Part shown: piece after piece, positions 2 through 53,696 of the stretch
How positions within the stretch are numbered: the first letter of the stretch is position 1
Layout of the letters: the number at the start of each line of letters is the position of its first letter
IMG/VR virus record: IMGVR_UViG_3300022926_000003
Coordinates: 1-64,000 of that record
DNA: 64,000 bases
Reading direction: 5' to 3' (one strand)
Source of the DNA: a virus
The notes under the pieces: generated by a model
What the model saw: only the letters and a program-made list of their open reading frames with translations
Database searches by the model: none
What the model was told of the DNA's origin: nothing
Translations under genes and position numbers: made by a program

Positions 2-1891
2 GGTACATCAGGTACTTCAGGATCATCAGGTACTTCAGGTACAAGTGGTTCATCAGGTACATCAGGTACTTCAGGATCATCAGGTACTTCAGGTACAAGT
101 GGTTCATCAGGTTCCAGTGGTACATCAGGTTCCTCAGGTACATCAGGTTCATCAGGTACATCAGGTTCATCAGGCTCCAGTGGTACATCAGGTTCCTCAG
201 GTACTTCAGGTTCATCAGGCTCTAGTGGTACATCAGGTTCATCAGGTTCCAGTGGTACATCAGGTTCCTCAGGTACATCAGGCTCATCAGGTACTAGCGG
301 CTCTTCAGGTACCTCAGGCTCTAGTGGTACATCAGGTTCCTCAGGTACTAGTGGTTCTTCAGGTACTAGCGGCTCTTCAGGTACCTCAGGTTCAAGCGGT
401 ACATCAGGTTCCTCAGGTACTTCAGGTTCCTCAGGTACATCAGGTTCATCAGGCTCTAGTGGTACATCAGGTTCATCAGGTACATCAGGTTCCTCAGGTA
501 CATCAGGTTCATCAGGTTCCAGTGGTACATCAGGTTCCTCAGGTACATCAGGTTCCTCAGGTACATCAGGTTCATCAGGTTCCAGTGGTACATCAGGTTC
601 CTCAGGTACATCAGGTTCCTCAGGTACATCAGGTTCATCAGGCTCCAGTGGTACATCAGGTTCCTCAGGTACTTCAGGTTCATCAGGCTCTAGTGGTACA
701 TCAGGTTCCTCAGGTACTTCAGGTTCATCAGGCTCCAGTGGTACATCAGGTTCCTCAGGCTCTAGTGGTACATCAGGTTCATCAGGTACATCAGGCTCAT
801 CAGGCTCTAGTGGTACATCAGGTTCCTCAGGTACTTCAGGTTCATCAGGCTCCAGTGGTACATCAGGTTCCTCAGGTACTTCAGGTTCATCAGGTACTTC
901 AGGTTCATCAGGTACCTCAGGTTCAAGCGGTACATCAGGTTCCTCAGGTACATCAGGCTCATCAGGTACTAGTGGTTCTTCAGGTACTTCAGGTTCAAGC
1001 GGTACCTCAGGCTCATCAGGTACATCAGGTTCCTCAGGTACATCAGGCTCATCAGGTACTAGTGGCACATCAGGCTCATCAGGTACATCAGGCTCATCAG
1101 GTACTAGTGGTTCTTCAGGTACATCAGGTTCCTCAGGTACCAGTGGTACCTCAGGATCAAGTGGTACCTCAGGTTCATCAGGTACCAGTGGTTCATCAGG
1201 TACATCAGGCTCATCAGGTACTTCAGGTTCAAGTGGTACATCAGGCTCCTCAGGTACTAGTGGTTCTTCAGGTACCTCAGGCTCTAGTGGTACTTCAGGC
1301 TCATCAGGTACTAGTGGTACCTCAGGTTCAAGCGGTACATCAGGTTCCTCAGGTACATCAGGTTCCTCAGGTACTAGTGGTTCTTCAGGTACCTCAGGTT
1401 CCTCAGGTACCTCAGGTTCAAGTGGTACTTCAGGCTCATCAGGTACCAGTGGTTCATCAGGTACATCAGGTTCCTCAGGTACTAGTGGTTCTTCAGGTAC
1501 CTCAGGTTCAAGCGGTACATCAGGTTCCTCAGGTACATCAGGTTCCTCAGGTACATCAGGTTCCTCAGGTACTAGTGGTTCTTCAGGTACTTCAGGCTCT
1601 AGTGGCACATCAGGTTCCTCAGGTACATCAGGCTCATCAGGTACTAGCGGCTCTTCAGGTACCTCAGGCTCTAGTGGTACATCAGGTTCCTCAGGTACTA
1701 GTGGTTCTTCAGGTACCTCAGGTTCAAGCGGTACATCAGGTTCCTCAGGTACTTCAGGCTCATCAGGTACTAGTGGTTCTTCAGGTACCTCAGGCTCTAG
1801 TGGTACATCAGGTTCCTCAGGTACTAGTGGCTCATCAGGTACTTCAGGCTCAAGCGGTACTTCCGGTTCTTCAGGTACCTCAGGTACTAGT
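2..1891 (+). repeat. Tandem 9/18-nt repeat array coding (GTSGSS)n
   Basis: Degenerate tandem repeats built from the units GGTACATCA, GGTTCCTCA and GGTTCATCA fill the first 1.9 kb. Synonymous variants (AGT/TCA/TCC/TCT for Ser, ACA/ACT/ACC for Thr) are scattered through the array, so selection seems to act on the peptide. The period keeps all three forward frames and some reverse frames open, which creates long spurious ORFs of HQV or MYL repeats. Confidence 0.95.
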
Positions 1892-2338
1892 GGTACTTCT
1901 ATATCAGAAGTTTGGTCTACTGAAACTACTTTATTTTCAGGCGGTAGTAGAGTAATATCTAGTATAGTTCCCACTGATACTCAAGATTCCATACATATAG
2001 AAGGAATTATAGTATTTAATGCTACAGGAGCAAGTTATCTTGCATTAACTATACAACTAGAGTGTGATGCCTTTACTAATATTAGTGGAACTAATGATGT
2101 TACCTATTATTTAGATATAACAGATTTTAATGGGATTAGAAGAGACTCTAATGTTGGATTCCTCCCAATAAAAATTAATGAAATATGTGTAGAATTAACA
2201 GATAACCCTGCTGATGACGATATTACTGTAAAACTTACAAATAATTTATCTTTTGATGTAGATTTTAAATGTTTATTCCAAGTAAGAAAATATGATGATC
2301 CCGCAATTGTAATTTCTCCATCGGTAACAATAACTTAA
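2..2338 (+). CDS. Collagen-like Ser/Thr-rich tail fibre protein (5' end missing)
   Basis: The frame is open from base 2 to the TAA at 2336-2338, so the gene starts upstream of the window. About 630 residues are nearly pure Gly-X-Y triplets, mostly GTS and GSS, with no proline. They are followed by a non-repetitive C-terminal domain of about 148 residues beginning SISEVWSTETT and ending VISPSVTIT. Such G-X-Y arrays are common in phage fibres as rigid trimeric stalks; the C-terminal part may be a trimerising or receptor-binding head. Hundreds of Ser/Thr hydroxyls make it a plausible O-glycosylation target, and glycosyltransferase genes lie at 8734 and 9672. The product class is inferred from repeat type and the structural neighbours, not from a recognised domain. 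Confidence 0.8.
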   Translation, partial: GTSGTSGSSGTSGTSGSSGTSGTSGSSGTSGTSGSSGSSGTSGSSGTSGSSGTSGSSGSSGTSGSSGTSGSSGSSGTSGSSGSSGTSGSSGTSGSSGTSGSSGTSGSSGTSGSSGTSGSSGTSGSSGTSGSSGTSGSSGTSGSSGTSGSSGSSGTSGSSGTSGSSGTSGSSGSSGTSGSSGTSGSSGTSGSSGSSGTSGSSGTSGSSGTSGSSGSSGTSGSSGTSGSSGSSGTSGSSGTSGSSGSSGTSGSSGSSGTSGSSGTSGSSGSSGTSGSSGTSGSSGSSGTSGSSGTSGSSGTSGSSGTSGSSGTSGSSGTSGSSGTSGSSGTSGSSGTSGSSGTSGSSGTSGSSGTSGTSGSSGTSGSSGTSGSSGTSGSSGTSGTSGSSGTSGSSGTSGSSGTSGSSGTSGSSGTSGSSGTSGSSGTSGSSGTSGSSGTSGTSGSSGTSGSSGTSGSSGTSGSSGTSGSSGTSGSSGTSGSSGTSGSSGTSGSSGTSGSSGTSGSSGTSGSSGTSGSSGTSGSSGTSGSSGTSGSSGTSGSSGTSGSSGTSGSSGTSGSSGTSGSSGTSGSSGTSGSSGTSGSSGTSGSSGTSGSSGTSGSSGTSGSSGTSGSSGTSGSSGTSGSSGTSGTSGTSISEVWSTETTLFSGGSRVISSIVPTDTQDSIHIEGIIVFNATGASYLALTIQLECDAFTNISGTNDVTYYLDITDFNGIRRDSNVGFLPIKINEICVELTDNPADDDITVKLTNNLSFDVDFKCLFQVRKYDDPAIVISPSVTIT

Positions 2339-2792: not shown

Positions 2793-3782
2793 ATGGGTAA
2801 TTTATTAGGTAAAGATAAAATTCTTCTTCAAGGGGATATTAGGAATGTCCAACTTAGAGGTCAACATGGTCGAAATGTTTTCTTAAAAGCAAGACATGAT
2901 ATCCCTTATGACCCTGTTCCTTTAATTACAAATGGATTATACCTTTTTATAGTTTCTCAAGCAACAGGTAGTAATTTAAGCACGTATGATGGTCATGCTT
3001 CAAGTACTACCTTTATTGGATACTATAAGCGATATAAAGATCAATCTCCCGAAGAACATGATTATACTCTATTTTTTGAAAATATAAACAATCCTTCAGA
3101 AAATCCTACTATTAACGACTTTGGTATTACCGAAAATGGTAAGTATAGTGTAAGGTACTTTAAATTTGATAATAATAAATTTATGGATAACATAAATGTT
3201 AACAATACTTTAGATTTCGCAACCACAGATCCTGTAACCCATATAATGTGGATACGTAATGTTAATATAAACCCCGATGAGTATATATACCGTAATGCCT
3301 CCAGCAGCCCTAATCAAAGATACAGAATAAGCAGAGGGCCTAACCCTAACTCAGACCATTTACATGTCGATGTTCCAGTAGGTATGACTGGTACTATCCC
3401 TAGAGTTTACAATTATTTTACTGATTCTTTTCTTATCGACACTTCAGAATGGCATATGTTGGTCATAAGAATAACTGCAAAGTCTGGAGCGGGTGAAGAC
3501 ATTGATATAAAAGTTATAGGGAAAAACCAAGTAACTTGGAATTGGAGTGATGATCCTGAATATAGTGCTAATATTAAAACCCAAGCAACCTTCGACAAAA
3601 CTTATGAATTTGCAACCGCTGGTTCTACCAATGCATGGGGTCTGGTTACTACTCATGATGATGCCTCTAGTTTTGAATCATCACTAATGTTAGTATATAA
3701 CCGTTTCCTTTCAGACAGCGAAGTAAACCAAGTTTATCAACACTTTGCTCCTACTCATGGCTTAGTTGCAGGAATAACATGA
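2793..3782 (+). CDS. LamG/concanavalin-like fibre protein
   Basis: 329 aa. The last 50 residues read like the end of a laminin-G/ConA jelly-roll: a DDASSFESSLMLVYNRFLSD stretch followed by SEVNQVYQHF, matching the usual 'YNRALSdeEI.q.Y' ending of LamG_3 domains. A middle segment, SEWHMLVIRITA, corresponds to the 'W.hvv.t' core strand. The N-terminal ~40 residues may anchor the protein to the virion. The stop overlaps the next start by 4 nt (ATGA), so the two lectin-like genes are probably co-translated. Binding to a host surface glycan is inferred from the fold. Confidence 0.65.
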   Translation: MGNLLGKDKILLQGDIRNVQLRGQHGRNVFLKARHDIPYDPVPLITNGLYLFIVSQATGSNLSTYDGHASSTTFIGYYKRYKDQSPEEHDYTLFFENINNPSENPTINDFGITENGKYSVRYFKFDNNKFMDNINVNNTLDFATTDPVTHIMWIRNVNINPDEYIYRNASSSPNQRYRISRGPNPNSDHLHVDVPVGMTGTIPRVYNYFTDSFLIDTSEWHMLVIRITAKSGAGEDIDIKVIGKNQVTWNWSDDPEYSANIKTQATFDKTYEFATAGSTNAWGLVTTHDDASSFESSLMLVYNRFLSDSEVNQVYQHFAPTHGLVAGIT

Positions 3783-4891
3783 CTTTAAACTTAAATGCAA
3801 CATACAAATCAGAGTCTGTAACAGGATTTATTACAATTGAACAACAAGGTTTTATTACAAATACTTTATTAAAGGGTCAAATTGGTAGTACTAATTTATT
3901 AAGTCAAAATTATGTGGCTTTAAATTCCTCATATGTTACTGAAAGTTTAGTAGGTAAAACTTATGTAGAATTATTAGGAACCCATTCTTTTATACCCTCT
4001 TCAAACACCCCTGATTATGTTACTACAGGCCTAATGCTCCACTTAGATGCTGAAGATTCAGGATCTCAACTTTGGGGGGATGTTAATCCTAATGTTAGTG
4101 GGAATCCCTCCCAAGCCAATAGACCCTTATGGCAATCTTTGGATAATTATGACCCTGGAACTACTTATACCGTATTACCCCTTGGTGGTACAGGTACCCC
4201 CCTTATAGCAGGAGGTACTGAAATAGAACTTACAGGAAGTTTAGCTGCAATATTTGCTAATGGTCCTTTATATGATACTACAGGAAGTGCTAAATATTTA
4301 GGGTTGGATGGAACAGATGATTTTATCCAAGCCACTGGTGGAGTTGTTAAATATCTTTCCCCTGACCCCGACTCAAGTGAAGCAACTGCGGCCATATATA
4401 GATTTCAAAATCTTAATACATCTAGTATAGAAATATGGTTAGCATCAGATCGTAACCGTGATAATAATGTTGAAGAAGAAATACTAATGACTTCATTCTC
4501 TAGACATGTAAGACTAACTAAAAAAGGTACTAGTGGTAGAGATCTTAGAGTTAATATCGAAGGTTCAACTACAAATTATAGTAATACCATCAATAATTTT
4601 TTCCCACCCCTAACTACAGGGAACCCTGGACCTTGGATGCACTTAGTAGTAACTATTGATGGTGCTAATAATACTGTTAAAGTGTACAAAAATGGATCCT
4701 TAACAAACACTTTTTCATCATTAAATATTGACACTACAGCAACTTTGCTCTATAACCCTCTTGTAAGAATAGGAACATATACATCTCAATATTTTAAAGG
4801 AAAAATTGCTATAGTAAGAATGTATGATTTTGCCCTTAGTGCAAATCAAGTTACACAAAATTATAATGCTGAACTTGATAGATTTGAATAA
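3779..4891 (+). CDS. LamG/concanavalin-like fibre protein
   Basis: 370 aa. The clearest LamG-like protein here: 'GLMLHLDAEDSG' starts the jelly-roll (about residue 82), 'WMHLVVTIDGANNTVKVYKNG' gives the central strands (about 285-305), and 'KGKIAIVRMYDFALSANQV' gives the closing strands. The N-terminal 80 residues form a separate Ser/Thr/Asn-rich part. It overlaps the stop of the preceding lectin-like gene by ATGA. Probably a receptor- or polysaccharide-binding fibre tip; the ligand cannot be read from sequence. Confidence 0.7.
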   Translation: MTLNLNATYKSESVTGFITIEQQGFITNTLLKGQIGSTNLLSQNYVALNSSYVTESLVGKTYVELLGTHSFIPSSNTPDYVTTGLMLHLDAEDSGSQLWGDVNPNVSGNPSQANRPLWQSLDNYDPGTTYTVLPLGGTGTPLIAGGTEIELTGSLAAIFANGPLYDTTGSAKYLGLDGTDDFIQATGGVVKYLSPDPDSSEATAAIYRFQNLNTSSIEIWLASDRNRDNNVEEEILMTSFSRHVRLTKKGTSGRDLRVNIEGSTTNYSNTINNFFPPLTTGNPGPWMHLVVTIDGANNTVKVYKNGSLTNTFSSLNIDTTATLLYNPLVRIGTYTSQYFKGKIAIVRMYDFALSANQVTQNYNAELDRFE

Positions 4892-8733: not shown

Positions 8734-9675
8734 ATGCAAAAGTTACTTTACGTAACTCCTCACTTGTCAACAGGAGGGTTACCACAATATCTTTTAAAAA
8801 AAATAGAGTATTTTAAATCTCAATTTAACATTTATGTAATAGAATATCAAGATTTAAGTTGGGAATACGTTGTTCAAAAAAATAAGATAAAACAATTACT
8901 AGGGGAAAATAAATTAATTACCCTTTATGAAGATAAACAGGTTTTATTACAACACATAGAAAATATAAAACCTGATATTGTTCATTTTGAAGAAATTCCT
9001 GAGCATTTTATAGATACTATTATTTTAGATAAAATTTTTAATAAACCTAATCGTTCTTATTATATTTTATCTACTACACATTCTTCATACACTGACCCTA
9101 ACCAATTATCTTCACTACCAGACAAATTTATTTTAGTATCTGAGTGGAGTAAAAATAGATTTGAATCGGTAGTAAAAATTCCTTGTGATATTTGGGAATA
9201 TCCGATTGAGGATTTAATTCCTAATAAAGAAAAATACCAAAAAGAATTAGGATTTGATCCTAGTTATAAACATATAATTAATATAGGATTATTTACCCCT
9301 GGTAAAAACCAAAGTGAAATATTCGAAGTTGCAAAACACCTTACAGATAAAGATATAATATTCCACTTTATAGGAAACCAAGCAGGTAATTTTGAAGATT
9401 ATTGGGGTCCCTTAATGAAAAATAAACCTAAAAACTGTAAAGTATGGGGGGAAAGAAATGATGTAGAAAAGTTTTTACAAGCTGCTGATTTATTTTATTT
9501 TAGTAGTATTTTAGAGTTAAACCCCTTAGTAGTTAAAGAATCACTTTCCTACAAACTCCCTATTCTGATGAGAAAACTCCCCACCTACTTAAACCAGTAT
9601 GATAACAATAATTTAGTATCATATACAAATGGGGATGTTAATCAAACTAAAAATTTAATTTTAGAAAAATTATGA
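8734..9675 (+). CDS. Glycosyltransferase, GT4-like (GT-B fold)
   Basis: 313 aa. The N-terminus LLYVTPHLSTGGLPQYL is the typical first strand and glycine loop of GT4 enzymes. The C-terminal half has a Rossmann strand IINIGLFTPGKNQSE and the acid/hydrophobic donor-site region ELNPLVVKESLSYKLPIL. It follows the fibre block after a 37-nt gap rich in T and A. The stop overlaps the next start by ATGA, linking it to a TibC/BAHT-like enzyme. It probably transfers a sugar to a phage or host acceptor; donor and acceptor are unknown. Confidence 0.75.
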   Translation: MQKLLYVTPHLSTGGLPQYLLKKIEYFKSQFNIYVIEYQDLSWEYVVQKNKIKQLLGENKLITLYEDKQVLLQHIENIKPDIVHFEEIPEHFIDTIILDKIFNKPNRSYYILSTTHSSYTDPNQLSSLPDKFILVSEWSKNRFESVVKIPCDIWEYPIEDLIPNKEKYQKELGFDPSYKHIINIGLFTPGKNQSEIFEVAKHLTDKDIIFHFIGNQAGNFEDYWGPLMKNKPKNCKVWGERNDVEKFLQAADLFYFSSILELNPLVVKESLSYKLPILMRKLPTYLNQYDNNNLVSYTNGDVNQTKNLILEKL

Positions 9676-10835
9676 TATACGATAATTTAAGTTATAATGC
9701 TTCTTATAATACTAATGAAAATAAAATAAATATTTCTTTCATTGAAGGAGCTAAAGTTGAAATTAATGGTTCTTTTGATAAGAAATATTTAGTTAAGTTC
9801 TTTAATTATAAAACTAATGAACTTATATGGGAGGATACTATTAGCAATAACATGTGGACTTCCCCTAACCCTCAATATTTTATAAAGTGGAGGGTAGAAG
9901 TTTGGAATAATGGAAACAAAATAAAAGAACATATTTTTGATTGTACTAATAAAAGAGTTTATATTCATTTAGATTCTAAATCCATTGGAGATACATTAGC
10001 ATGGTTTCCTTATATAAAACAATTTCAAGAACAACATAATTGCAAAGTTGTGTGTTCTACATTTCATAATGATTGGTTTAAAAAAGAATATCCTAATGTT
10101 GAATTTGTAGAACCTAATACTATAGTGCATGATTTATATGCTATGTATAGAGTAGGATGGTTTTACGAAGAAGAAAATATCAATTTAAATAAAAATCCAA
10201 AAGAAGTAAAAACCCAACCCTTACAAAAAACTGCAAGTGACATATTGGGGTTACAATATCAAGAAATTAAACCTTCTATTTTTATTAAAAATAAAAAACG
10301 CAATATAAAAGAAAAATATGTTGTTATAGCCCCCCATGGAACCAAACATGCTTCTTATTGGAATAATAAGGGGGGGTGGCAACTTATAATTGATTGGTTA
10401 AATGAAACAGGATATAAAGTAGTTATGATTTCCTATGAAAAATTAGGAAATAGCTGGCATGATTCTAAACTAGGAGGAACCTTACAAAATGTAATAGATA
10501 AAACAGGTGACTATTCTTTCCAAGATAGATTCACAGACATTTTTAACGCTGAAGCTTTTGTAGGAACAGGTAGTGGTTTATCCTGGGTTAGCTGGGCCTT
10601 AAATACCCCTACAATTCTTATCTCAGGATTTAGTGATGAGTATACTGAATTCCAAAATTGTGAAAGAATAAGTGCCCCCTCTAATGTATGCCGTGGATGT
10701 TTTAATACTCATAAATTAGATGCAGGAGATTGGGAGTGGTGTCCCCACCATAAAGATACCCCCCGCCATTTTGAATGCTCAAAATCTATAACCCCAGATT
10801 TGGTTGCTAATGCTCTTGTTCGTATATTGGAGTGA
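9672..10835 (+). CDS. TibC/BAHT-like protein O-heptosyltransferase
   Basis: 387 aa. A beta-rich N-terminal domain (1-95) precedes a GT-B core starting KSIGDTLAWFPYIKQF (about 107). The C-terminal half has 'GTGSGLSWVSWALNTP' and a Cys-rich segment, CRGCF at about 339, WEWCP at about 357 and FECSKSI at about 368. This is the pattern of bacterial autotransporter heptosyltransferases (TibC, AAH, BAHT), whose cysteines bind an iron ion and which O-glycosylate serines of repetitive beta-helical passengers. A phage copy next to Ser/Thr-repeat fibre genes suggests virion-fibre glycosylation. Family assignment is from motif memory; substrate is inference. Confidence 0.75.
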   Translation: MIYDNLSYNASYNTNENKINISFIEGAKVEINGSFDKKYLVKFFNYKTNELIWEDTISNNMWTSPNPQYFIKWRVEVWNNGNKIKEHIFDCTNKRVYIHLDSKSIGDTLAWFPYIKQFQEQHNCKVVCSTFHNDWFKKEYPNVEFVEPNTIVHDLYAMYRVGWFYEEENINLNKNPKEVKTQPLQKTASDILGLQYQEIKPSIFIKNKKRNIKEKYVVIAPHGTKHASYWNNKGGWQLIIDWLNETGYKVVMISYEKLGNSWHDSKLGGTLQNVIDKTGDYSFQDRFTDIFNAEAFVGTGSGLSWVSWALNTPTILISGFSDEYTEFQNCERISAPSNVCRGCFNTHKLDAGDWEWCPHHKDTPRHFECSKSITPDLVANALVRILE

Positions 10836-12092
10836 ATGTTTTGGCTCATAGAGAATAATGAACAATTAACCCAACTTAGGGCAAAGAATTTTAAGAATGT
10901 TTTTATTGAACCTATATGGTCTAATGAAAACGTTCACCCCTACCATAGGGGAATCCAAGGGTTTTATATTAGGGAAGTAAACTATAAAAAAGGATTTATA
11001 GTTGTACTACAACATAGCGAAACCACTAGTTGTGGTATGGATGAAATTTATGATCTAATATATAGTTTTGATGAAATATTTGTAAGGGATAGGAAAGCAT
11101 TTTTAAATATAGCACCTAATAAAAAGCTTAGCGACATAGACTATATATATCCTACAGATATCCCAGACTCATTCCCATGCCATGAGTTTTTCTATAGGCA
11201 ATATCCTAACATAGCCAATATAGGTAGCATCATCCCCATAGTAAAGCATTATGAACGTTGTGAAACGATATTTCACGCGGTTAAGCATGTGTTTTCTATG
11301 GAGAAACCACCACACTTTGAGTTTTATAATATCAAAGCTACAAATGTGTTTTATTGGATTGAACAAGAGGGAATTAAGGTAGATCCCGAGTTATTTGAAA
11401 AGTATTTTAAAGCTAATGTTACCCCTTGGGACCATGTTTATACGTGTTTTAATCTAAAAACAACTACTACGCGACCCTCAAACACTTATGGAGGTGTAAA
11501 TTATATGGCGTTGGATAAAAAAAATGGTTGTCGAGAAGCGTTTATACCTAAAAACGACTTTTTATTAGAGATTGATATTAGTGCTTATCACCCTACATTA
11601 GCGGCACAATTGGTAGGATACAAATTTGAGCATGAAGACATACACCAAGCATTTGCTGACATGTATGGGGTAGATTATAAAAAGGCTAAGGAGTTAACTT
11701 TTAAACAGCTATACGGAGGGGTATTTAAGGAATATAAAGAGTTAGAATTCTTTAAACGTGTAGAAAAATATATAGAGGATATAAGTAGTAAGGAAGAATA
11801 CAAGTGTAAATCTGGATATGTTTTTAAAACAGATATGAAGCCTCAAAAACTGTTTAATTACATACTTCAAAACACGGAAACGTATTATAATGTGCTTATT
11901 TTAGAAGAAATCATACATATACTTAAAAATAGTGAAACTAAGATTGTTCATTATACTTATGATTCATTCTTGTTAGATGTATCTAAGGATGAGAAATATG
12001 TAGTGTTGTCTATCCTCGCTGTATTTAAGAAATATGGATTTTCTACTAAAGTAGAGGCAGGTCCCAATTATAGTTCTTTAGAAAGGGTGTAA
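10836..12092 (+). CDS. Divergent family A DNA polymerase-like protein
   Basis: 418 aa, starting one base after the previous stop. From about residue 210 the sequence follows the family A palm/fingers order: a 'TRPSNTYGGVNYMALDK' stretch, motif A LEIDISAYHPTLAAQLVG (Asp at about 247), 'EDIHQAFADMYGV', motif B KKAKELTFKQLYGG (about 281-296), and motif C HYTYDSFLL (Asp at about 376). Both putative metal-binding Asp residues are present. The N-terminal 170 residues could be a decayed 3'-5' exonuclease domain, but I see no DEDD set. The T4 replicative enzyme (family B) is also encoded here, so this is a second polymerase-type protein; reverse transcriptase or primase-polymerase activity is not excluded. 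Confidence 0.65.
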   Translation: MFWLIENNEQLTQLRAKNFKNVFIEPIWSNENVHPYHRGIQGFYIREVNYKKGFIVVLQHSETTSCGMDEIYDLIYSFDEIFVRDRKAFLNIAPNKKLSDIDYIYPTDIPDSFPCHEFFYRQYPNIANIGSIIPIVKHYERCETIFHAVKHVFSMEKPPHFEFYNIKATNVFYWIEQEGIKVDPELFEKYFKANVTPWDHVYTCFNLKTTTTRPSNTYGGVNYMALDKKNGCREAFIPKNDFLLEIDISAYHPTLAAQLVGYKFEHEDIHQAFADMYGVDYKKAKELTFKQLYGGVFKEYKELEFFKRVEKYIEDISSKEEYKCKSGYVFKTDMKPQKLFNYILQNTETYYNVLILEEIIHILKNSETKIVHYTYDSFLLDVSKDEKYVVLSILAVFKKYGFSTKVEAGPNYSSLERV

Positions 12093-35314: not shown

Positions 35315-37000
35315 ATGTACAAAAAATGTTATGCTGAATATGCTGGTAAAAACCGGTATAAGATACATCTATGGGAAGAAGATAATTATAATATAATTCC
35401 TTGGAGCAATCCTGCTTATGTTGAGTGCTCTGAAAATGAAGCTCAATACCAGGGTTTGAAGGGGGAATGGTTAAAGAAAACCTATAAATGGGACAAAGAT
35501 ACCCCTGGCCTCCACTTCCATGACATGCCTGCTTACCAAAAGTTCCTTATTGAAAAATATGGAACTAATGATGAAGTGTCTAAGGGACACCGTGAAGTAT
35601 TTTTTGATATTGAGATTGAAATGGGTGGAGCACTTACAGAAGAGTATATTAAAGAAGCTCCTAAACCTGTAACTTCAATTGCTTGGTATGATAAAACACC
35701 TGATGAATGGGTAATTCTTATTTTAGATAAAAAGAATCAAATTAAACATACTAAGGGACACAAAGAAATTATCCCTTGTGCTAGTGAAGAAGAACTACTT
35801 AGTAAGTTTATAGAAAAATTTAGAGAAATAAACCCAGACATCCTTGTAGGATGGAATAGTGATTACTTTGATATTCCTTATCTTTATTTTAGGATTAGTA
35901 GAGTGCTAGGTGAAGATTTTGCTAATGCCTTATCTCCTATAGATGTTGTAAAAGACGAAAGTGCTTGGAACCGCAACGGATGGCTCAATATTGCAGGAGT
36001 TGAATCACTAGACTATATGAAACTACATAAAAAGTTTAGTTTCCGAGATGAACCCTCAATGAGACTAGATGCTATTGGAGAAAAATATGTTAATTTAGGT
36101 AAAGTTGAATATGATGGTAATCTAGATCGTTTATTCGAAGATGATATCCAAAAGTTTATTCAATACAACTTTCGAGATGTAGAAATACTTAAGGCACTAG
36201 ATGAAAAATTTGAATATATTGGCCTTGTAAAAAACCTATCACATAAAGGAAAACACAATTATGGAGAGGTTTATGCAAACACTAAAACCCAAGACGGAGC
36301 AATTTCAGCTTATTTGTTAGGACAAAATATTGTCCCACCTTCTAGAGATAAAAATCCAATTCATAAAAAGGGTTATGCAGGTGGTTATCTATTTTGTCCT
36401 GCTGCAGGTTTGTATAAGTACATGTTTGATGAGGATCTAACTTCACTGTATCCTTCAATTATTATGTCTCTTAACATTGGTAAAGAAACATATGTTGGTA
36501 GAGTAATGGATTTGTTTGATGATCGAAATAATCGTTTAGGGTTAAATGATCTTAAAGCAATGGACCCTAATAAAGAATTGTGTGTTGAAAACCTACAACG
36601 TAAACAAACTTATATTCCCTGTAAAAAAATTATTGAAACTATAGAAAATAATAACTTAGCCATCTCAGCTAATGGTGTAATGTTTAGAACTGATAAGCCT
36701 TCTGTTTTGTCAACTATACTTGCTAAATGGTTTGATGAGCGAGTGGAATATAAAGGTTATATGAAAAAAGCATATAAAGCTGGTGATAAAGAAAAGGGTG
36801 CGTTTTGGCATCAACGTCAACACACAATGAAAATTTTGTTAAATAGCTTGTATGGTGCAACTGCTCTTGGTAGTTTTAGATACGGTAACGTAATCCTTAG
36901 TGAGGCAATCACTCTATCTGGTCAGCGTATTATTCAAGAAAGTGCTTTGTGTGCTAATAGACATATGAATAAAGTAATTAGAGGAGAAGTAAAACTATGA
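35315..37000 (+). CDS. 43A: DNA polymerase family B, N-terminal part (exonuclease, palm motif A, fingers)
   Basis: 561 aa. The 3'-5' exonuclease motifs are visible (EVFFDIEIE at about 94; GWNSDYFDIPYLYFR; YNFRDVEIL). Polymerase motif A DEDLTSLYPS carries Asp at about 374, and motif B KILLNSLYGA starts at about 506. The ORF stops in ATGA at 36997-37000, before motif C, which is in the next ORF. The pair together is about 870 aa, the length of T4 gp43. The natural reading is a two-piece polymerase; a sequencing indel is the alternative. Confidence 0.88.
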   Translation: MYKKCYAEYAGKNRYKIHLWEEDNYNIIPWSNPAYVECSENEAQYQGLKGEWLKKTYKWDKDTPGLHFHDMPAYQKFLIEKYGTNDEVSKGHREVFFDIEIEMGGALTEEYIKEAPKPVTSIAWYDKTPDEWVILILDKKNQIKHTKGHKEIIPCASEEELLSKFIEKFREINPDILVGWNSDYFDIPYLYFRISRVLGEDFANALSPIDVVKDESAWNRNGWLNIAGVESLDYMKLHKKFSFRDEPSMRLDAIGEKYVNLGKVEYDGNLDRLFEDDIQKFIQYNFRDVEILKALDEKFEYIGLVKNLSHKGKHNYGEVYANTKTQDGAISAYLLGQNIVPPSRDKNPIHKKGYAGGYLFCPAAGLYKYMFDEDLTSLYPSIIMSLNIGKETYVGRVMDLFDDRNNRLGLNDLKAMDPNKELCVENLQRKQTYIPCKKIIETIENNNLAISANGVMFRTDKPSVLSTILAKWFDERVEYKGYMKKAYKAGDKEKGAFWHQRQHTMKILLNSLYGATALGSFRYGNVILSEAITLSGQRIIQESALCANRHMNKVIRGEVKL

Positions 37001-37923
37001 TACACTTAGAAGAAACACCTTGGTGGATATGTGACGAAGGAGATAAAAATTTCTGTGCTTATGTAGACACAGACTCAAATTACTTTAACGCTGAACCCCT
37101 CTTACTACATCTCTACCCAGATTTTGAAAGTAAAACTGATGAAGAAAAAGACAACCTACTTGAACAAATCGCACTTAAGTATCAGGACATCATTACTTCT
37201 CATTATGATGAGTTGGCTAGGGACTGCTTCAATGTCGGTACACATCGACTTGAAATGAAAACAGAGTGCGTTATCCGTTCTGCTTATTTTAGAGCAACTC
37301 GTAGATATGCTCAGTGGATAACTAAACAAGAGGGTATAGCTAAAGAATCACTAGATGTTAAAGGACTTGAGTTTAAAAAAGCTAACTTTCCTCCTATATT
37401 TGGAGATTTCTTTAATGATATCTTAGAGCAAATTCTAAAAGGAGCAGATCAAAAACATATTGATAAGTTAATTTTAGATTTTAGGAATCATGTTATGTCT
37501 AAAGATTTAGATATAGCTAAACTTGGCAATCCTACCTCTGTAAAAACACTAAATGAGTATGTAGTTCGTAAACCTAGAGCAGGTGAGGTAATGACTGAAC
37601 TTAAAAAAGGTGCCCCTGTTAATGTTAAGGCAGCAGTAAAGTATAATGATTTGCTTAACTTTTGGGGTATTAAAAACCATAGCCGAATAGTACAGGGAGA
37701 TAAAATCAAATGGGTCTATTTAAAAGATAATCCCTACAAAATTGAACAAATAGGCTTCTTAACCTTTGACATGCCAGATAAGTTTCGTATATTTCTTGAG
37801 GACTATGCTGATAGGAAAAAATCATTTGAAACTATACTACAATCTAAGTTGGAAGGGTTTTATAATGACCTAGGCTGGACATTAAATTTAAATCCAAACA
37901 TAAATAAATTTTTTAGTTTCTAA
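36997..37923 (+). CDS. 43B: DNA polymerase family B, C-terminal part (palm motif C, thumb)
   Basis: 308 aa. Motif C AYVDTDSNYF (Asp-Thr-Asp at about 24-26) lies just after the start, followed by the palm/thumb. KTECVIRSAYFRATRRYAQWI and KGLEFKKANFPP are thumb-proximal blocks seen in T4-like gp43. The ORF is in the -1 frame relative to 43A and starts in an ATGA overlap, with a TAA in its own frame 5 nt upstream. The C-terminus NINKFFSF may be the clamp-binding peptide. It shares one base with the clamp gene. Confidence 0.85.
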   Translation: MIHLEETPWWICDEGDKNFCAYVDTDSNYFNAEPLLLHLYPDFESKTDEEKDNLLEQIALKYQDIITSHYDELARDCFNVGTHRLEMKTECVIRSAYFRATRRYAQWITKQEGIAKESLDVKGLEFKKANFPPIFGDFFNDILEQILKGADQKHIDKLILDFRNHVMSKDLDIAKLGNPTSVKTLNEYVVRKPRAGEVMTELKKGAPVNVKAAVKYNDLLNFWGIKNHSRIVQGDKIKWVYLKDNPYKIEQIGFLTFDMPDKFRIFLEDYADRKKSFETILQSKLEGFYNDLGWTLNLNPNINKFFSF

Positions 37924-39890: not shown

Positions 39891-40177
39891 TGGTAAAAGC
39901 ATTATTTAACGCGGTTATTATAAAACCGATCGAAGAAGAAGAAAGTGTCCATGGGAGCATTATTGTTCCTGATATGGGCAAAGAAAAAAACCTTAAAGGT
40001 GAAGTAGTATCTGTTGGTCCTGGTTACTATTCAGGTATGGGACACTTTATTGAGACTACTATAAAAGTAGGGGATATTGCACTTCTTCCCCAAATGGGTC
40101 CTACTAAAGTAGACTATGAAGGGCAGGAATACTACATGATTGAAGAAAATAAAATTTTAGGAATTATTGAAAAATGA
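39890..40177 (+). CDS. groES: Co-chaperonin GroES
   Basis: 95 aa, the usual GroES length. The mobile-loop region is EEESVHGSIIVPDMGKEKN (about 17-35), with GEVVSVGPG and KVGDIALLPQMGPTKVDYEG typical of the fold. Caps GroEL. It overlaps groEL by ATGA, so the two are made together. Confidence 0.92.
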   Translation: MVKALFNAVIIKPIEEEESVHGSIIVPDMGKEKNLKGEVVSVGPGYYSGMGHFIETTIKVGDIALLPQMGPTKVDYEGQEYYMIEENKILGIIEK

Positions 40178-41799
40178 ATAAAACAACTATCGTAAACTAC
40201 GGAGACGACTCCCGTAAAAAATTAATTAGTGGGGTTAATCAACTCGCAGATGCAGTCGTAACTACTTTGGGGCCAAATGGTCGTAATGTTGTTATCCAAA
40301 ATGAACAAGGTGTTCCCCAAAGTACTAAGGATGGAGTAACTGTAGCTAAAGCTATTGAACTTGAGGATACTGTTGAAAATACGGGTGCTCAAATGGTTAA
40401 GCAGGCTGCTATTAAAACTGCTGAACAAGCAGGTGATGGTACTACCACTTCTACTTTGCTGGCCCGTGAAATTGTAAATGCAGGTATGCGCTACAGTGAT
40501 AAGGGACATAACATTGTAGAGATTAAACGTGGTATTGATGTATGTGTTAAAGCCCATGTAGATTATCTTAGGGAGATATCTCAAGATATTTCTAGCGAAA
40601 AGCAACTCCGCCAGGTAGCTACTATCTCAGCTAATAATGATGAAGAGGTAGGTGAGTTGATTGCTACTGCTATGGAAAAAGTTGGACGTGATGGTGTAGT
40701 AACTATTGAAGAGTCACGTACAGGTGAAACCTACCTTGAAACAGTAGAGGGCCTACAATTTGATAGGGGCTATAAATCACCTTATTTTGTTACTAACAAT
40801 GACAATATGAGTTGTGTACTCAAGGATGCAGCTATTCTTTTTTATAACGGTAGAATTACTACTGTAAAAGATTTGCTCCCCCTCCTTGAAAATCTATCAC
40901 AGCAAGCTAAATCACTTCTTATTGTTGCTGAAGATATTGATGGTGAAGCACTTGCTACACTTGTTGTTAATAAAATGAGAGGTATTTTGAACGTATGCTG
41001 TGTTAAAGCCCCTGATTTTGGTGATCGTCGTACTTTGCTTATGAATGATATGGCTACCCTTACAGGTGGTACTGTTGTTGATAAAGACAAAGGTATGAAA
41101 CTTGATAAGTTTGACCTAAATTGGTTAGGTGAGTGCCGTACAGTTACTGTCACTAAAGAATCAACTACTCTTGTTGATGGTGCAGGTACCGAAGAAGCTA
41201 TTGAGGGGCTGTGTGCCCAACTTCAATCTCAAATTGAAAATTCTACTTCACCTTTTGAAACTGAAAAACTCCAAGAGCGTTTAGCTAAACTTACAGGTGG
41301 AGTAGCTGTTGTCCATGTAGGTGGGAACACTGAAACTGAAATGCGTGAACGTAAAGATAGAGTTGATGATGCTCTTCAAGCTACTAAAGCGGCTATTGAA
41401 GAAGGTATTGTACCTGGTGGGGGAGTAGCATTGCTTCGTTCTAGTGAAAACGTAACGTGTAAAACTACTAACGATGACCAAAAACTAGGATGTGCTATTA
41501 TGAATGCAGCTCTGCGTAAACCCTTTAGACAAATCCTTATAAATGCTGGTATAGAAGATGCTCCCCGCATCGAATTTAGTACTACATCAGCTGAAAATGC
41601 TAATATAGGTTACAATATTAAAACTGGTAAGTTTGATGATTTCCTTAAAAAAGGTATTATTGATCCTACCAAAGTTACGCGTTGTGCTCTCGAAAATGCA
41701 GCTTCAATTGCAGGTACTATTTTGTTAACAGAATGTACTGTAGTTAATAAACCTCAAGAAAATCAAGATGAGGTTGGAGCTATGTCTGGAATGTATTAA
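40174..41799 (+). CDS. groEL: Chaperonin GroEL
   Basis: 541 aa, full length. ATP-site motifs [18 protein letters not shown] and [11 protein letters not shown] are intact. The later [22 protein letters not shown] and [10 protein letters not shown] blocks carry the hydrolytic Asp and equatorial nucleotide site. The C-terminus ends GAMSGMY rather than the long GGM repeat. With groES it forms a complete phage-encoded folding machine, probably for capsid or other virion proteins; T4 itself uses host GroEL with gp31. Confidence 0.95.
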
Positions 41800-46130: not shown

Positions 46131-46612
46131 TATCAAACAAATCAAAAATAGGTAAAAATGTAGAAATTCATCCCCTAGCACTAATAGAAGATGGTGTAGA
46201 AATTGGTGATAACACTAAAATTGGTCCGTTTTGCATTGTGAGGACTGGTGCGAAGATTGGTAAGAATTGTTCATTTACTGCTTATTGTGAAATTAGAAAT
46301 AACGTCGTAGTGGGTGATAGAACCTCTATGGGAAGCAGATGCACAATCTCAGCAAACGCTACTATTGGGAAAAATTGTGTAATTAAATATGGGTTTGTAT
46401 TAACCGACACTCCAAACCTTGAAGAAAATTCAACAAAAATTGTAAAAGGTATAGGTAATTTTGTGCTAATTGGTGCAAATGTAACCTTAATGCCTGATAC
46501 ATCAGTTGGAAATAATTCAATTATAGGTGCTAATTCCCAAGTAAGAAATGATATTCCTGCAGATGAAATTTGGTATGGGATTCCCGCTAAAAAATATAAG
46601 GACAATAAATGA
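46127..46612 (+). CDS. Left-handed beta-helix acetyltransferase (LpxA/FdtC-like)
   Basis: 161 aa of hexapeptide repeats: IGKNVEIHP, VEIGDNTKIGPFCIV, VVVGDRTSMGS, ATIGKNCVIKYG, NFVLIGANVTLMP. The ending IPADEIWYGIPAKKYKD is the usual tail of sugar acyltransferases. With the aminotransferase-like gene it could N-acetylate an amino sugar. It overlaps both neighbours by ATGA. Confidence 0.85.
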   Translation: MISNKSKIGKNVEIHPLALIEDGVEIGDNTKIGPFCIVRTGAKIGKNCSFTAYCEIRNNVVVGDRTSMGSRCTISANATIGKNCVIKYGFVLTDTPNLEENSTKIVKGIGNFVLIGANVTLMPDTSVGNNSIIGANSQVRNDIPADEIWYGIPAKKYKDNK

Positions 46613-47430
46613 TATTATCAATTTTACCTAATACTAAAGAAGGAATGATTACTTATTATGTAGGTGATAATCCTGAACATGTAAAACATTTAAAAAATTG
46701 TAAATTATTTTGCAAACAAAAATTTGAAGGATTAAATAATGTAGTACAAGTTATTGTAAAAAATCCCCAACTAGAATTTTATAGGTTATCCCATCAAGTA
46801 AAATACCCATACACTTTTGATAAAAAATCATATATTAAGGGTGATAATTGTTCTATAGACCCTACAGCTGTAATTGGTGATGGTGTTGTAATTGGTGATA
46901 ATGTAATTATTGGCCCTAATTCTGTAGTTTATTCTAAAACTGAAGTAGGAAATGGAACAAGGATAGATGCTAATTGCAGTATTGGAACCGAAGGTATGAT
47001 GTGGGTGTGGGATGGGGCTACTAAAGTTTTTTTAAGACAATTAGGTGGAGTTAAAATAGGAAACAACTGTATTATTGGTAGTAATACTTCAATAGTAAGA
47101 GGATCAGCAAATGAATACACAACCTTAAAAGACAATGTTAACTTAGCTCCTGGTTGCTGTATAGGTCATGGAACTAAAATTGGAGAAAATGTACATTTTG
47201 CTAATAATGTTACTATAGGGGGTTCTGTTAAGATATCTAATAATTGTTTCTTAGGTTGTGCCACCATCATAAACCCTAGAATAGAACTCCAATCAGATAA
47301 TATAATATTAGGAGCAGGAAGTGTAGTAATTAAAAACATAAAAGATAGTGGAGTTTATATAGGAATTCCTGCTAAAAAGAAAAAAAACATTGAACCCAAC
47401 CTTAAAGGAATTCCACTATGGAACTTATAA
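46609..47430 (+). CDS. Left-handed beta-helix acyltransferase (LpxD-like)
   Basis: 273 aa. An N-terminal alpha/beta domain (1-75) precedes a long hexapeptide helix: SIDPTAVIGDGVVIGDNVII, RIDANCSIGTEGMMW, VKIGNNCIIGSNTSIV, CIGHGTKIGENVHF. The tail ends VYIGIPAKKKK. The two-domain layout resembles LpxD or WbbJ-like sugar acyltransferases. The end overlaps the next gene by 13 nt. Acceptor unknown. Confidence 0.8.
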   Translation: MILSILPNTKEGMITYYVGDNPEHVKHLKNCKLFCKQKFEGLNNVVQVIVKNPQLEFYRLSHQVKYPYTFDKKSYIKGDNCSIDPTAVIGDGVVIGDNVIIGPNSVVYSKTEVGNGTRIDANCSIGTEGMMWVWDGATKVFLRQLGGVKIGNNCIIGSNTSIVRGSANEYTTLKDNVNLAPGCCIGHGTKIGENVHFANNVTIGGSVKISNNCFLGCATIINPRIELQSDNIILGAGSVVIKNIKDSGVYIGIPAKKKKNIEPNLKGIPLWNL

Positions 47431-48158
47431 ATAAAAAATATAGTAACCCTAAATTAGCAATAGTTGTAACTACTTATTATAGACCTGATGGTAAAACATT
47501 TAGTTATATAAAAAATACCTTACAAAGTGTTTTTAACCAAACATATAAAAATTGGAAAATATACTTAATAGGAGATAATTACAAAGACAAAGCAGAATTT
47601 GAACAAATAATTAAACTTTGCCCCCCAAATAAAACCCTACCCATTAACCTTCCAGTGGCTGTAGAAAGGAAAAGGTATCCTAAAGGAGGAGAGGATTTAT
47701 GGCATAGTGGGGGTGCCCACGGTACCAACATAGGGATAGAATATGCTATAAACGAAGGTTATGATTATATCTGTAAATTAGACCACGATGATATTTATTT
47801 TCCTGATCATTTAGAAACCTTAGCTACAGCAATAGAAACTACTCAATCTCCATTTCTTTATACTAAATCCAAATACCTAAATGGTGTTTTACCCCGCCAA
47901 AACCCCCCAGAACTTTATACTAATCTCCCCCCAACTCCTATTAATATAATTAATTCTAGTACTTGTATTAACTATAGAATTATACCTTTAAGAAGAAGAG
48001 ACCCTTTATATTTTTATGGAAGACGTGAACCTGGAGATATAAATTTTTATAATAGAGTTAACCCTTGGATGAAACAACATGATTTAAAACCTGTATTTAT
48101 CAATAAGTTAACTGTTGATCATTTTGAGGAGGGTTATACCCGAAACACATCTTTTTAA
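47418..48158 (+). CDS. Family 2-like glycosyltransferase (GT-A)
   Basis: 246 aa. KLAIVVTTYYRPD is the nucleotide-binding N-terminus, with SVFNQTYKNWKIYLIGDN and the DxD-type CKLDHDDIYFPDHL (about 119). It probably transfers a sugar in the phage or host surface glycan. It follows the acyltransferase genes with a short overlap. An AATATTTATA motif follows the stop. Confidence 0.8.
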   Translation: MELINKKYSNPKLAIVVTTYYRPDGKTFSYIKNTLQSVFNQTYKNWKIYLIGDNYKDKAEFEQIIKLCPPNKTLPINLPVAVERKRYPKGGEDLWHSGGAHGTNIGIEYAINEGYDYICKLDHDDIYFPDHLETLATAIETTQSPFLYTKSKYLNGVLPRQNPPELYTNLPPTPINIINSSTCINYRIIPLRRRDPLYFYGRREPGDINFYNRVNPWMKQHDLKPVFINKLTVDHFEEGYTRNTSF

Positions 48159-48165
48159 TTTCGCG

Positions 48166-48175
48166 AATATTTATA
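48166..48175 (+). promoter_or_regulatory. AATATTTATA motif upstream of 48192
   Basis: Exact 10-mer in the 33-nt gap after a glycosyltransferase, 16 nt before the next ATG. Confidence 0.45.
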
Positions 48176-48191
48176 TCAAAATATATTAGCT

Positions 48192-48374
48192 ATGAAAAAA
48201 GATTTAACATTAACAAGCGTAAAAATTCAAAGTGATTTATTTGAAGAATTTAAAGTAGCATGTGTTAGACATAAGTTTTCTTTTCAAAAACTTGCTGACC
48301 GTTGTGTTCATTTGTATCTTACTGATGAAGACTTTAAACGTCAAATCCACAATCACAATAGTTTAGATTTATAA
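48192..48374 (+). CDS. Small ribbon-helix-helix-like protein
   Basis: 60 aa. LTLTSVKIQSDLFEEFKVAC followed by KFSFQKLADRCVHLYL resembles a ribbon-helix-helix: a strand with alternating residues, then two helices. Such proteins bind DNA as dimers and repress their own operons. It sits between a promoter-like motif and a glycosyltransferase run. The fold is inferred from pattern only. Confidence 0.55.
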   Translation: MKKDLTLTSVKIQSDLFEEFKVACVRHKFSFQKLADRCVHLYLTDEDFKRQIHNHNSLDL

Positions 48375-48386
48375 TAAAAAAACAAA

Positions 48387-49838
48387 ATGGTTACGAAAAT
48401 GAAAGGATATGTTCCCAAAGAGGAACGTAAAAAGATACTCCTAATGTGTGATGATATTAGGACTCATTCGGGAATAGGGACTATAGCCAAAGAAATGGTG
48501 CTCCATACCTGCCATCACTATAATTGGGTAAATATAGGAGCAGCAATACAACACCCTGAAGAAGGAAAAATTATAGATTTAAGCCCTGAAACCAATAAAA
48601 TAACAGGATTAGAAGACACCTCAGTAACTATATACCCTAGTAATGGGTATGGGAACCCCGATGCAGTGAGGTTCTTTATAAAAAGAGAGCAGCCTGATGC
48701 CATTTTTATATTTACTGACCCCAGATATTGGACTTGGTTGTTTCAAATGGAAAACGAAATTAGGCAAAATATTCCTATTATTTATTTAAATATTTGGGAC
48801 GACTTCCCAGCCCCAATGTATAATAAAGAATATTATGAATCATGTGATTTGTTAATGGGCATTTCAAAACAGACTGTTAATATAAATAAATTAGTATTAG
48901 GAGATAAAGCTAAAAATAAAATTATTTCTTATGTTCCCCATGGGCTAAATCATAAAATATTTTTCCCTATCGACAAATCACACGAAAAAGCCACTCAGCT
49001 TGAAGAGTTTAAAACTGAGCTTTTTAAAGGCAAAGAATATGATTTTGTTACCCTTTACAACTCTAGAAACATTAGGCGTAAACAGATACCAGATACTATT
49101 TGGGCCTATAAACAATTCGTTGATAAACTTACTCCCAAGCAAGCTGAGAAATGTCTTCTAATATTAAAAACCCAAAGGATAGATCCTAATGGTACCAATT
49201 TACCTGCTGTTATTGAAACTTTGTGTGGGGATGATAAAAAGTATAACATTTTATTTGTAGAGGATAAATTGGATACTGAGCATATGAATTTTCTATATAA
49301 TTGCTCTGATGTTCAGATCCAACTTACATCTAATGAAGGGTGGGGGTTAAGTTTAACCGAAGCTTTACTTGTAGGTAACCCTATAGTAGCTAATGTTACC
49401 GGGGGAATGCAAGACCAAATGAGATTTATAGATAATAAAGGAAAATGGTTTACCCCTAATGAGAAAATACCTTCAAACCATAGAAAAACATATACCCAAC
49501 ATGGAGAATGGGCCTTTCCTATTTTCCCTTCAAGTATTTCAATCCAAGGTTCCCCTCCTACCCCTTATATTTTTGATGATAGATGTGATTCTAGTGATGC
49601 CGCTAATAGATTATTTGAGGTATGGGAAATGGGGGCTAAAGAAAGAAAAATTAAAGGAGAAATAGGAAGAAAGTGGGCTCTAAGTGATGAAGCAGGATTC
49701 ACTGCAGAAAAAATGTCCTACCGTATTATAGATAATATAGATACATTATTTAAAAATTGGAAGCCCCGAGAAAGGTATGAACTAATCAAAATAGACACTA
49801 GAAAACCAAAAGTAACACCCCATAAATTAGAATATTAA
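48387..49838 (+). CDS. Glycosyltransferase, GT4-like
   Basis: 483 aa. The N-terminal LLMCDDIRTHSGIGTIAKEM is a GT-B glycine loop. The donor half has VTLYNSRNIRRKQIP and the donor-binding EGWGLSLTEALLVGNPIVA with acidic residues at the expected spacing (about 316-334). An ATG at 48402 is a possible alternative start. Overlaps the next GT by one base. Confidence 0.8.
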   Translation: MVTKMKGYVPKEERKKILLMCDDIRTHSGIGTIAKEMVLHTCHHYNWVNIGAAIQHPEEGKIIDLSPETNKITGLEDTSVTIYPSNGYGNPDAVRFFIKREQPDAIFIFTDPRYWTWLFQMENEIRQNIPIIYLNIWDDFPAPMYNKEYYESCDLLMGISKQTVNINKLVLGDKAKNKIISYVPHGLNHKIFFPIDKSHEKATQLEEFKTELFKGKEYDFVTLYNSRNIRRKQIPDTIWAYKQFVDKLTPKQAEKCLLILKTQRIDPNGTNLPAVIETLCGDDKKYNILFVEDKLDTEHMNFLYNCSDVQIQLTSNEGWGLSLTEALLVGNPIVANVTGGMQDQMRFIDNKGKWFTPNEKIPSNHRKTYTQHGEWAFPIFPSSISIQGSPPTPYIFDDRCDSSDAANRLFEVWEMGAKERKIKGEIGRKWALSDEAGFTAEKMSYRIIDNIDTLFKNWKPRERYELIKIDTRKPKVTPHKLEY

Positions 49839-51118: not shown

Positions 51119-51536
51119 ATTAACAATATGTCCTCGTTGTGGAAGCGATGCTTGTTACGAACAAGAAATGGGGGCGGATTACGTTATAAGTTTATGTTAT
51201 GGGTGTGGATTTACAACTAATACTTTAATGCAATCTGGCAGTTCATTTCTTAGTGAGCAAATAGAAATACTTCCCGAGTTGTATAAGGATCTTATTTATG
51301 TAGATGATAAAGGTTTAAATTGGATGCCTTCTGCTACTAATAATCCTGAAAAAGGAATGGTGTATGCTGATGGTAAAAATGTTAAAGAATGGAGATGGGC
51401 TGCTGTAAAAGCTCTTTCTGAAGATCAAAGTGAAAAAACTTATAAAATGGATATGCAAAATCTAAAACACTTTGCCGAACACGATTATATGGAAGCTCTT
51501 GATTATATTGGTATGTTTAAAGAAGAAAAAAAATGA
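51105..51536 (+). CDS. Zinc-ribbon protein
   Basis: 143 aa. LTICPRCGSDACYEQ and ISLCYGCGFTTN form a CPxC...CxxC zinc ribbon (about 9-37). The rest is helical with GLNWMPSATNN and EWRWAAVKAL. The same architecture is seen in uncharacterised proteins of T4-like phages. It is embedded among glycosyltransferase genes with overlaps on both sides. Role unknown. Confidence 0.65.
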   Translation: MLKDKLTICPRCGSDACYEQEMGADYVISLCYGCGFTTNTLMQSGSSFLSEQIEILPELYKDLIYVDDKGLNWMPSATNNPEKGMVYADGKNVKEWRWAAVKALSEDQSEKTYKMDMQNLKHFAEHDYMEALDYIGMFKEEKK

Positions 51537-52890: not shown

Positions 52891-52907
52891 TAAAATAATT
52901 TTAAAAT

Positions 52908-53684: not shown

Positions 53685-53693
53685 ATATTTATA
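53684..53693 (+). promoter_or_regulatory. AATATTTATA motif upstream of 53697
   Basis: Exact 10-mer overlapping the stop of the GT2 gene, 3 nt before the next ATG. Confidence 0.4.
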
Positions 53694-53696
53694 ACC

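Follow-up and report, generated by a model that had tools for sequence, protein, structure and literature searches.

Which molecule does a TibC-type glycosyltransferase encoded by a phage modify, and could a Gly-Ser-Thr repeat fibre encoded in the same DNA be its acceptor? The stretch analysed here (the window) comprised bases 1–64,000 of a 100,680-base virus record. An initial annotation had proposed that the ORF at 9672–10835 encodes a TibC/BAHT-like enzyme, and that the phage uses it to modify its own fibre. The features that bear on the question were as follows.

2–2338 (+): collagen-like fibre, 5' end missing at the contig start (PF01391, 4.4e-90, 295.8 bits)
2–1900 (+): repeat part of the fibre, 211 GTS/GSS triplets (triplet count)
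1901–2335 (+): C-terminal domain of the fibre, 145 aa (ORF reading)
3779–4891 (+): virion structural protein with a Laminin_G_3/ConA-like domain, between the fibre and the enzyme (PF13385, 1.6e-12; phrog_8510, 5.4e-17)
8734–9675 (+): GT4 glycosyltransferase (PF00534, 3.7e-12)
9672–10835 (+): TibC-type glycosyltransferase (TIGR04414) of the phage-type clade, 387 aa, ATG start (profile, fold, tree and alignment)
9990–9992 (+): Asp-107, equivalent to TibC Asp-110 (aligned to TibC; Asp in 68/68 rows)
10344–10346 (+): Lys-225, possible stand-in for TibC Lys-230 (Lys in 4/68 rows, exactly those lacking Lys at 228)
10353–10355 (+): Ser-228, at the position of TibC Lys-230 (Lys in 64/68 rows, Ser in 3, Ala in 1)
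10689–10778 (+): iron-finger cysteines C340, C343, C357 and C369 (invariant in 68/68 rows of alignment A2)

The TibC-type enzyme and its GT4 partner

The DNA polymerase linked the window to T4-like phages, the nearest being Mel-JY01 (35%). This polymerase was encoded by two ORFs with a 4-base overlap, 35315–37000 and 36997–37923, which corresponded to positions 88–567 and 565–852 of phrog_262, respectively. The region at 10836–12092, directly 3' of the TibC gene, resembled positions 962–1231 (of 1445) of phrog_17, a second DNA polymerase family, and a phage-encoded GroEL was located at 40174–41799 (phrog_5725, 541 bits). About ten glycosyltransferases had been described in the window; the Pfam scan of 30 window proteins reduced this number to eight glycosyltransferase-like proteins, one of them below the cut-off. 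A second sugar cluster at 46609–55743 contained a hexapeptide transferase, a GT2, two GT4s, a GT2, RgpF, a GT2, and a GH16 glycosyl hydrolase.

The enzyme matched TIGR04414 (NCBIfam, Aah/TibC O-heptosyltransferases) with an E-value of 2.3e-91 and 306.5 bits (family cut-off, 200), which bore out the TibC/BAHT-like assignment, and its nearest PDB entries by sequence were those of TibC (4rb4/4rap, E about 1e-50). No PHROGs family was found for the enzyme, and no autotransporter, as found beside classical BAHT enzymes, was matched among the 30 window proteins scanned with Pfam. Structure prediction, which the initial annotation had put forward as a check, was performed with AlphaFold2 from 68 sequences and gave a model with a mean pLDDT of 91.3 and a pTM of 0.89. 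In a Foldseek search with this model, TibC chains ranked at the top (TM 0.85), and LPS heptosyltransferases scored far lower. VIA-align superposed residues 16–387 of the model on TibC with a Z-score of 39.5 (rmsd 2.2, 357 residues aligned), and comparison of the model with WaaC and WaaF gave Z-scores of about 18–19. The N-terminal barrel and the GT-B fold of TibC were both retained in the predicted structure.

These data bear on the possibility that the enzyme alters host lipopolysaccharide, like LPS heptosyltransferases, and blocks superinfection or changes the receptor. The enzyme showed GT9 similarity in Pfam, a second glycosyltransferase cluster was present at 47418–53684 of the window, and phage glycosyltransferases near tail fibres are read as O-chain modifiers in the accessible part of PMC7029224. 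However, the best LPS heptosyltransferase model reached only 33.4 bits, far below the score for the protein-modifying family, the structural Z-score was higher for TibC than for WaaC and WaaF, and both the N-terminal barrel and the iron finger were kept, so that we give the lipopolysaccharide role a slim chance.

The active site was compared with that of TibC, which, according to the available portion of PMC4358343, uses ADP-heptose to modify serines in a repetitive protein, binds iron through Cys-339, Cys-342, Cys-358, and Cys-370, has Asp-110 as the proposed catalytic base, and loses all or most of its activity when Lys-230 is mutated. The cysteine cluster described in the initial annotation (CRGC, WCP, FEC) was present and contained C340, C343, C357, and C369, which correspond to these iron ligands. 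The sugar-site residues Thr-226, Arg-286, and Trp-305 of TibC corresponded to T224, R286, and W305 of the window enzyme; among the 68 rows, Trp was found in 68, Arg in 62, and Thr or Ser in 68. Phe-265 and Val-266 of the TibC thumb tip were not conserved in the window enzyme. Lys-230, a conserved functional residue that the NCBIfam definition does not include, was replaced by Ser in three sequences (window enzyme, L004, L375) and by Ala in one (L376), and these four belonged to one clade (in the tree, L377 stands for the cluster of L376 and L001 for the window). Since Lys-225 occurred in exactly the four rows lacking Lys-228, the lysine looks as if it had moved three residues within the loop, and it is possible, judging from the alignment, that Lys-225 does the job of Lys-230.

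From the alignment scan, we took the best 80 relatives each from viral contigs (at least 568 detected) and from genome contigs (172 detected); a single-sequence scan of genome contigs detected no relatives of the enzyme. In a tree of 148 rows, constructed by a quick method and containing some long branches, 72 bacterial sequences were separated with a support of 100 from 68 viral and eight genome-contig sequences. By this sequence phylogeny, the phage TibC homologues are a clade apart from the classical autotransporter enzymes. Classical TibC relatives, among the best 80 of 172, were common in Lentisphaeria, Bradyrhizobium, Trinickia, Acetobacter, and some Bacillota (L303–L374). That phages carry members of this family was already apparent from UniProt, which holds phage proteins named Aah/TibC, such as A0A6J5SVC1 ('Glycosyltransferase Aah/TibC'). 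Four phage contigs (G020, G023, G143, and G222) each carried two TibC-type matches close together, as if duplicated.

In the window, GT4 and TibC are encoded by separate genes, and the stop codon of the former overlaps the start codon of the latter (ATGA). In many phages, a larger protein carried the enzyme at its C-terminal end; in Mel-JY01, the GT4 and TibC parts were in one protein of 1226 aa, the middle part of which was taken for the annotated FkbM-type methyltransferase. A comparison of 32 loci revealed relatives of the window GT4 (8734) in 26, one locus (L001) representing the same phage as the window; in other phages, these relatives adjoined TibC or were fused to it.

The repeat fibre and its linkage to the enzyme

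The fibre of about 630 Gly-Ser-Thr residues that had been described at the start of the window contained exactly 633 repeat residues. All 211 triplets were GTS (104) or GSS (107), with Gly at every third residue throughout, as expected for PF01391, and the composition was 318 Ser, 104 Thr, 211 Gly, and no Pro. The DNA copies agreed at only 72% and comprised 70 different 18-base units; selection therefore seems to hold the peptide pattern. A recent DNA artefact was ruled out as the origin of the repeat, since the copies differ in DNA and the GTS/GSS pattern never breaks. Because the window starts at base 1 of the contig, the N-terminal part of the fibre lies outside the record; two near-identical contigs likewise ended within the fibre repeat. 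The model of the C-terminal domain was unusable (pLDDT 35), and this domain had no match in the PDB.

Identification of the repeat protein as a virion fibre relies on its place before another structural gene and on relatives in two other loci. In L006, the repeat protein beside TibC ended in a Peptidase_S74 tailspike chaperone domain, and in L378, the block consisted of a repeat ORF, GT4, GT4, TibC, tail sheath, and tail tube. The usual order in phages was fibre, GT4, GT4, TibC, tail sheath, and tail tube. In the window, the enzyme had been described as lying next to the fibre; the two do share the window, but they are 7.3 kb apart with nine forward ORFs between them. Across 8,726 triplets of TibC-linked repeats, position X was 41% Thr and 26% Ser, and position Y was 61% Ser and 7% Thr; Ser or Thr occupied 67% of the X and 67% of the Y positions, and Pro was about 0.1%. 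In one contig (G217; L626, 1–10451), a collagen ORF of the GST type adjoined one of the GPQ type, both upstream of TibC.

The association of enzyme and repeat was examined from three directions. A GST repeat was defined as at least 45 residues with Gly in 14 of 15 triplets and Ser plus Thr in at least half of the X and Y positions. For the forward comparison, 112 viral TibC loci were reduced to 65 clusters at 90% identity, with L036–L039 left out and the cluster L028/L029 scored as negative because its longer member had no repeat. GST repeats were found in 32 of the 65 independent TibC loci vs. 0/80 around another glycosyltransferase of the same phage. When only loci of at least 16 kb were counted, the values were 21/24 and 0/28, respectively; under a relaxed rule, 22/24 TibC loci were positive, and one of the two remaining misses (L383) had a GST ORF of 2409 aa elsewhere on the contig, outside the first locus. 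In 34 positive loci that were measured (including Mel-JY01 and LR756501.1), enzyme and repeat were on the same strand in 31, and the median distance was 4.1 kb. Mel-JY01, a Microcystis phage with the host Microcystis elabens, carried both a TibC-domain protein and a GTS-repeat fibre. No GST repeat was detected in the sequence at the 26 loci of the L007 group or at L038. The control (0/80) ruled out a general proximity of glycosyltransferases to GST repeats in these phages. This same control also bears on the lipopolysaccharide role, which would leave the linkage to GST repeats unexplained.

For the reverse comparison, contigs were picked only by a GTSGSSGTSGSSG-coding pattern (GTSGSS) or by a GPQ collagen pattern. 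We searched 100 of at least 120 GTSGSS loci, representing 99 contigs (G021 occurred twice), and 100 of at least 120 GPQ loci; L040, which has both patterns, was counted with GTSGSS only. Among the matches listed, TIGR04414 was detected in 28/99 GTSGSS contigs vs. 1/100 GPQ-collagen contigs (Fisher test, 6e-9; length-stratified permutation, 0/20,000). TIGR04414 was found in 13 of 18 GTSGSS contigs of at least 80 kb, again among the matches listed, and about 72% of all GTSGSS contigs in these matches had no detected TibC, many of them being short fragments. The possibility that any collagen-like fibre goes with TibC was ruled out by the rarity of TIGR04414 in GPQ contigs (1/100 in the matches listed); at the loci of the one positive contig (L195/L294), neither a GTSGSS pattern nor a GST repeat was present in the locus sequence.

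In the third comparison, contigs of one lineage were anchored on the tail sheath, and 22 of 80 were taken, long ones by choice. GST repeats were found in 6/7 TibC-positive contigs and 0/9 TibC-negative contigs (read whole or to at least 95%; p = 0.0009). Among the TibC-positive contigs, G217, G219, G220, and G231 were shared with the forward test, and G222 (negative), G228, and G229 (both positive) were new; G232 was left out, with an enzyme fragment at its end. Five further TibC-negative sheath contigs, partly read, also lacked GST repeats. On the smaller loci alone, the comparison was weaker (5/15 vs. 0/12).

The sheath itself has to be considered as an acceptor: the enzyme might glycosylate another virion protein, with the GST fibre as a mere neighbour in the structural block. 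In several phages, the tail sheath gene lay just downstream of TibC, and the sheaths of the L018 group and L030, which had no GST repeat in the locus sequence, contained stretches of up to 45–47% Ser plus Thr, whereas stretches of at least 40% occurred in 0/466 control ORFs. However, a sheath was always present in the sheath-anchored set, and yet the GST repeat tracked TibC within it; moreover, the Methylococcaceae loci described below pair the repeat with the enzyme. Modification of another virion protein, such as the sheath, in place of the fibre is therefore unlikely, although it has slightly better prospects than the lipopolysaccharide role. Long sheaths with Ser/Thr-rich parts near a GT4-TibC type protein were those at 11256–15170 of L018 (1304 aa) and 4853–6889 of L030 (678 aa). 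Different groups may thus have different acceptors, given that the sheath adjacent to TibC is Ser/Thr-rich in L030 and in some members of the L007 group.

Although co-inheritance in one lineage inflates all of these linkage counts, the comparative sequence support for a tie between enzyme and fibre across phages is strong. In the initial annotation, the phage had been proposed to glycosylate its own fibre; the tie on which this proposal depends held up in repeated comparative tests that could have failed, and self-glycosylation of the fibre is likely on this evidence.

Bacterial loci of the phage-type clade

Under the relaxed rule, GTS repeats were found at six of the eight genome-contig loci of the phage-type clade vs. 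1/72 classical loci (from the best 80 of 172), and some of these eight loci may come from viral contigs that binning placed in bacterial assemblies. In three loci of Methylococcaceae (L297, L298, and L299), a repeat-protein gene was situated directly upstream of the enzyme gene. L299 did not pass the relaxed rule, and its repeat was visible by eye and by Pfam. The two repeat proteins that were read fully had 287 and 323 aa, and the Methylococcaceae GTS-repeat protein is apparently exported, as its start resembles a signal peptide by eye. L297 is on a 4.5-Mb scaffold of Methylobacter luteus, where the neighbouring genes look like Mfd and a glycolate-oxidase subunit, which we take to mean that this locus is not a prophage.

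These loci also bear on whether enzyme and fibre merely share their descent within a single group of large aquatic myophages, with no functional tie. Most positive loci did fall in one region of the tree, containing 61 viral rows, and the order of the block was often identical. Against this, the pairing recurred with other orders and strands (L006, L422, L438, Mel-JY01, and LR756501.1), extended to deep branches of the clade and to Methylococcaceae, and was absent from sheath-matched relatives without TibC. Co-inheritance alone is thus the least probable of the three alternatives.

Proposed mechanism and comparison with known systems

The reading that we prefer, with a probability of roughly 0.7, is that the window encodes a cytoplasmic TibC-type protein O-glycosyltransferase of a phage-specific clade that transfers most likely ADP-heptose, or a close ADP-sugar, onto the proline-free G-(T/S)-S fibre of the phage. 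TibC works in the cytoplasm, prior to export, and because the phage fibre would be made in the cytoplasm, no export would be needed. During infection, the enzyme would draw the ADP-heptose, or a closely similar ADP-sugar, from the host cell and use it to prime the G-(T/S)-S repeat at its serines and perhaps at its threonines; the product of the adjoining upstream GT4 gene would probably extend the sugar. The sugar coat may stiffen or stabilise the proline-free collagen-type rod, shield the fibre from proteases, or tune adsorption. A stabilising role is plausible because glycosylation is known to stabilise collagen (PMC3368898, in the part available).

The supply of the donor was examined through genes of the ADP-heptose pathway. 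Domain II of rfaE was matched in 0/12 records, and gmhA in 1/20, with no match in the window phage. The gmhA match (L532/L533, 15084–15653; 251 bits, cut-off 209), to the first enzyme of the pathway, was in the huge phage LR756504.1 (636 kb), about 27 kb from the TibC homologue that this phage encodes. As no ADP-heptose genes were found in the window phage, the donor must come from the host; the window record is a fragment or of uncertain completeness, so that absence of heptose genes is not proven. The donor may also be other than heptose.

In a wider sense, we would give even odds to a so far undescribed, widespread system in large aquatic phages, in which a distinct TibC-type clade and its GT4 partners coat collagen-like fibres that lack proline, follow the pattern G-(T/S)-(S/N/A), and can reach thousands of residues, with sugar replacing stabilisation by Pro or hydroxyproline. 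Methylococcaceae would have adopted the pair for an exported repeat protein, and the subclade of the window, with its lysine three residues upstream, would perhaps have a changed donor. If this is true, nature would offer collagen-like rods that lack proline, as well as a peptide tag that may accept dense decoration by an enzyme. Many phages offer test cases, and for one of these, Mel-JY01, the host is named (Microcystis elabens).

In the parts available of PMC7029224 and PMC12619734, the usual interpretation of phage glycosyltransferases encoded beside tail fibres is that they alter host surface sugars or phage DNA. The specific association with a single fibre type suggests a different target of glycosylation, the virion itself. 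In the open PubMed Central literature, with subscription papers mostly outside, we found no TibC-type enzyme tied to a phage or to a phage collagen-like fibre, and we likewise found no description there of phage TibC-type enzymes as a clade linked to fibres.

The enzymes of mycobacteriophage glycosylation belong to a family that we take to be unrelated to the TibC-type enzyme of the window. Glycosylation of mycobacteriophage virions (Freeman 2023, via the available part of PMC12619734) resembles the proposed system in having glycans on phage virion proteins; there, the C-termini of capsid and tail tube subunits are glycosylated, whereas the predicted target here is a collagen-like fibre. The closest relatives are the TibC/AAH enzymes (BAHT, TIGR04414), with which the window enzyme shares a score above the family cut-off, the barrel and GT-B fold, the four iron-finger cysteines, the catalytic Asp, and the Thr/Arg/Trp of the sugar site. 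The phage enzymes differ from them in forming a separate clade, in often being fused to or beside a GT4, in having a collagen-like repeat protein and not an autotransporter as the partner, and, in the window subclade, in the Ser at the position of Lys-230. The known acceptor of TibC is a beta-helix, whereas the proposed phage acceptor is a collagen-like rod. Glycosylated collagen-like proteins of the BclA type use other enzymes and sugars, and compared with these proteins, the fibre type of the window is almost without proline and has Ser as the main Y residue. The likeness to Bacillus anthracis BclA and to collagen with glycosylated Thr, as described in the accessible part of PMC3368898, lies in a sugar on a collagen-like rod, for which stabilisation of the triple helix is known.
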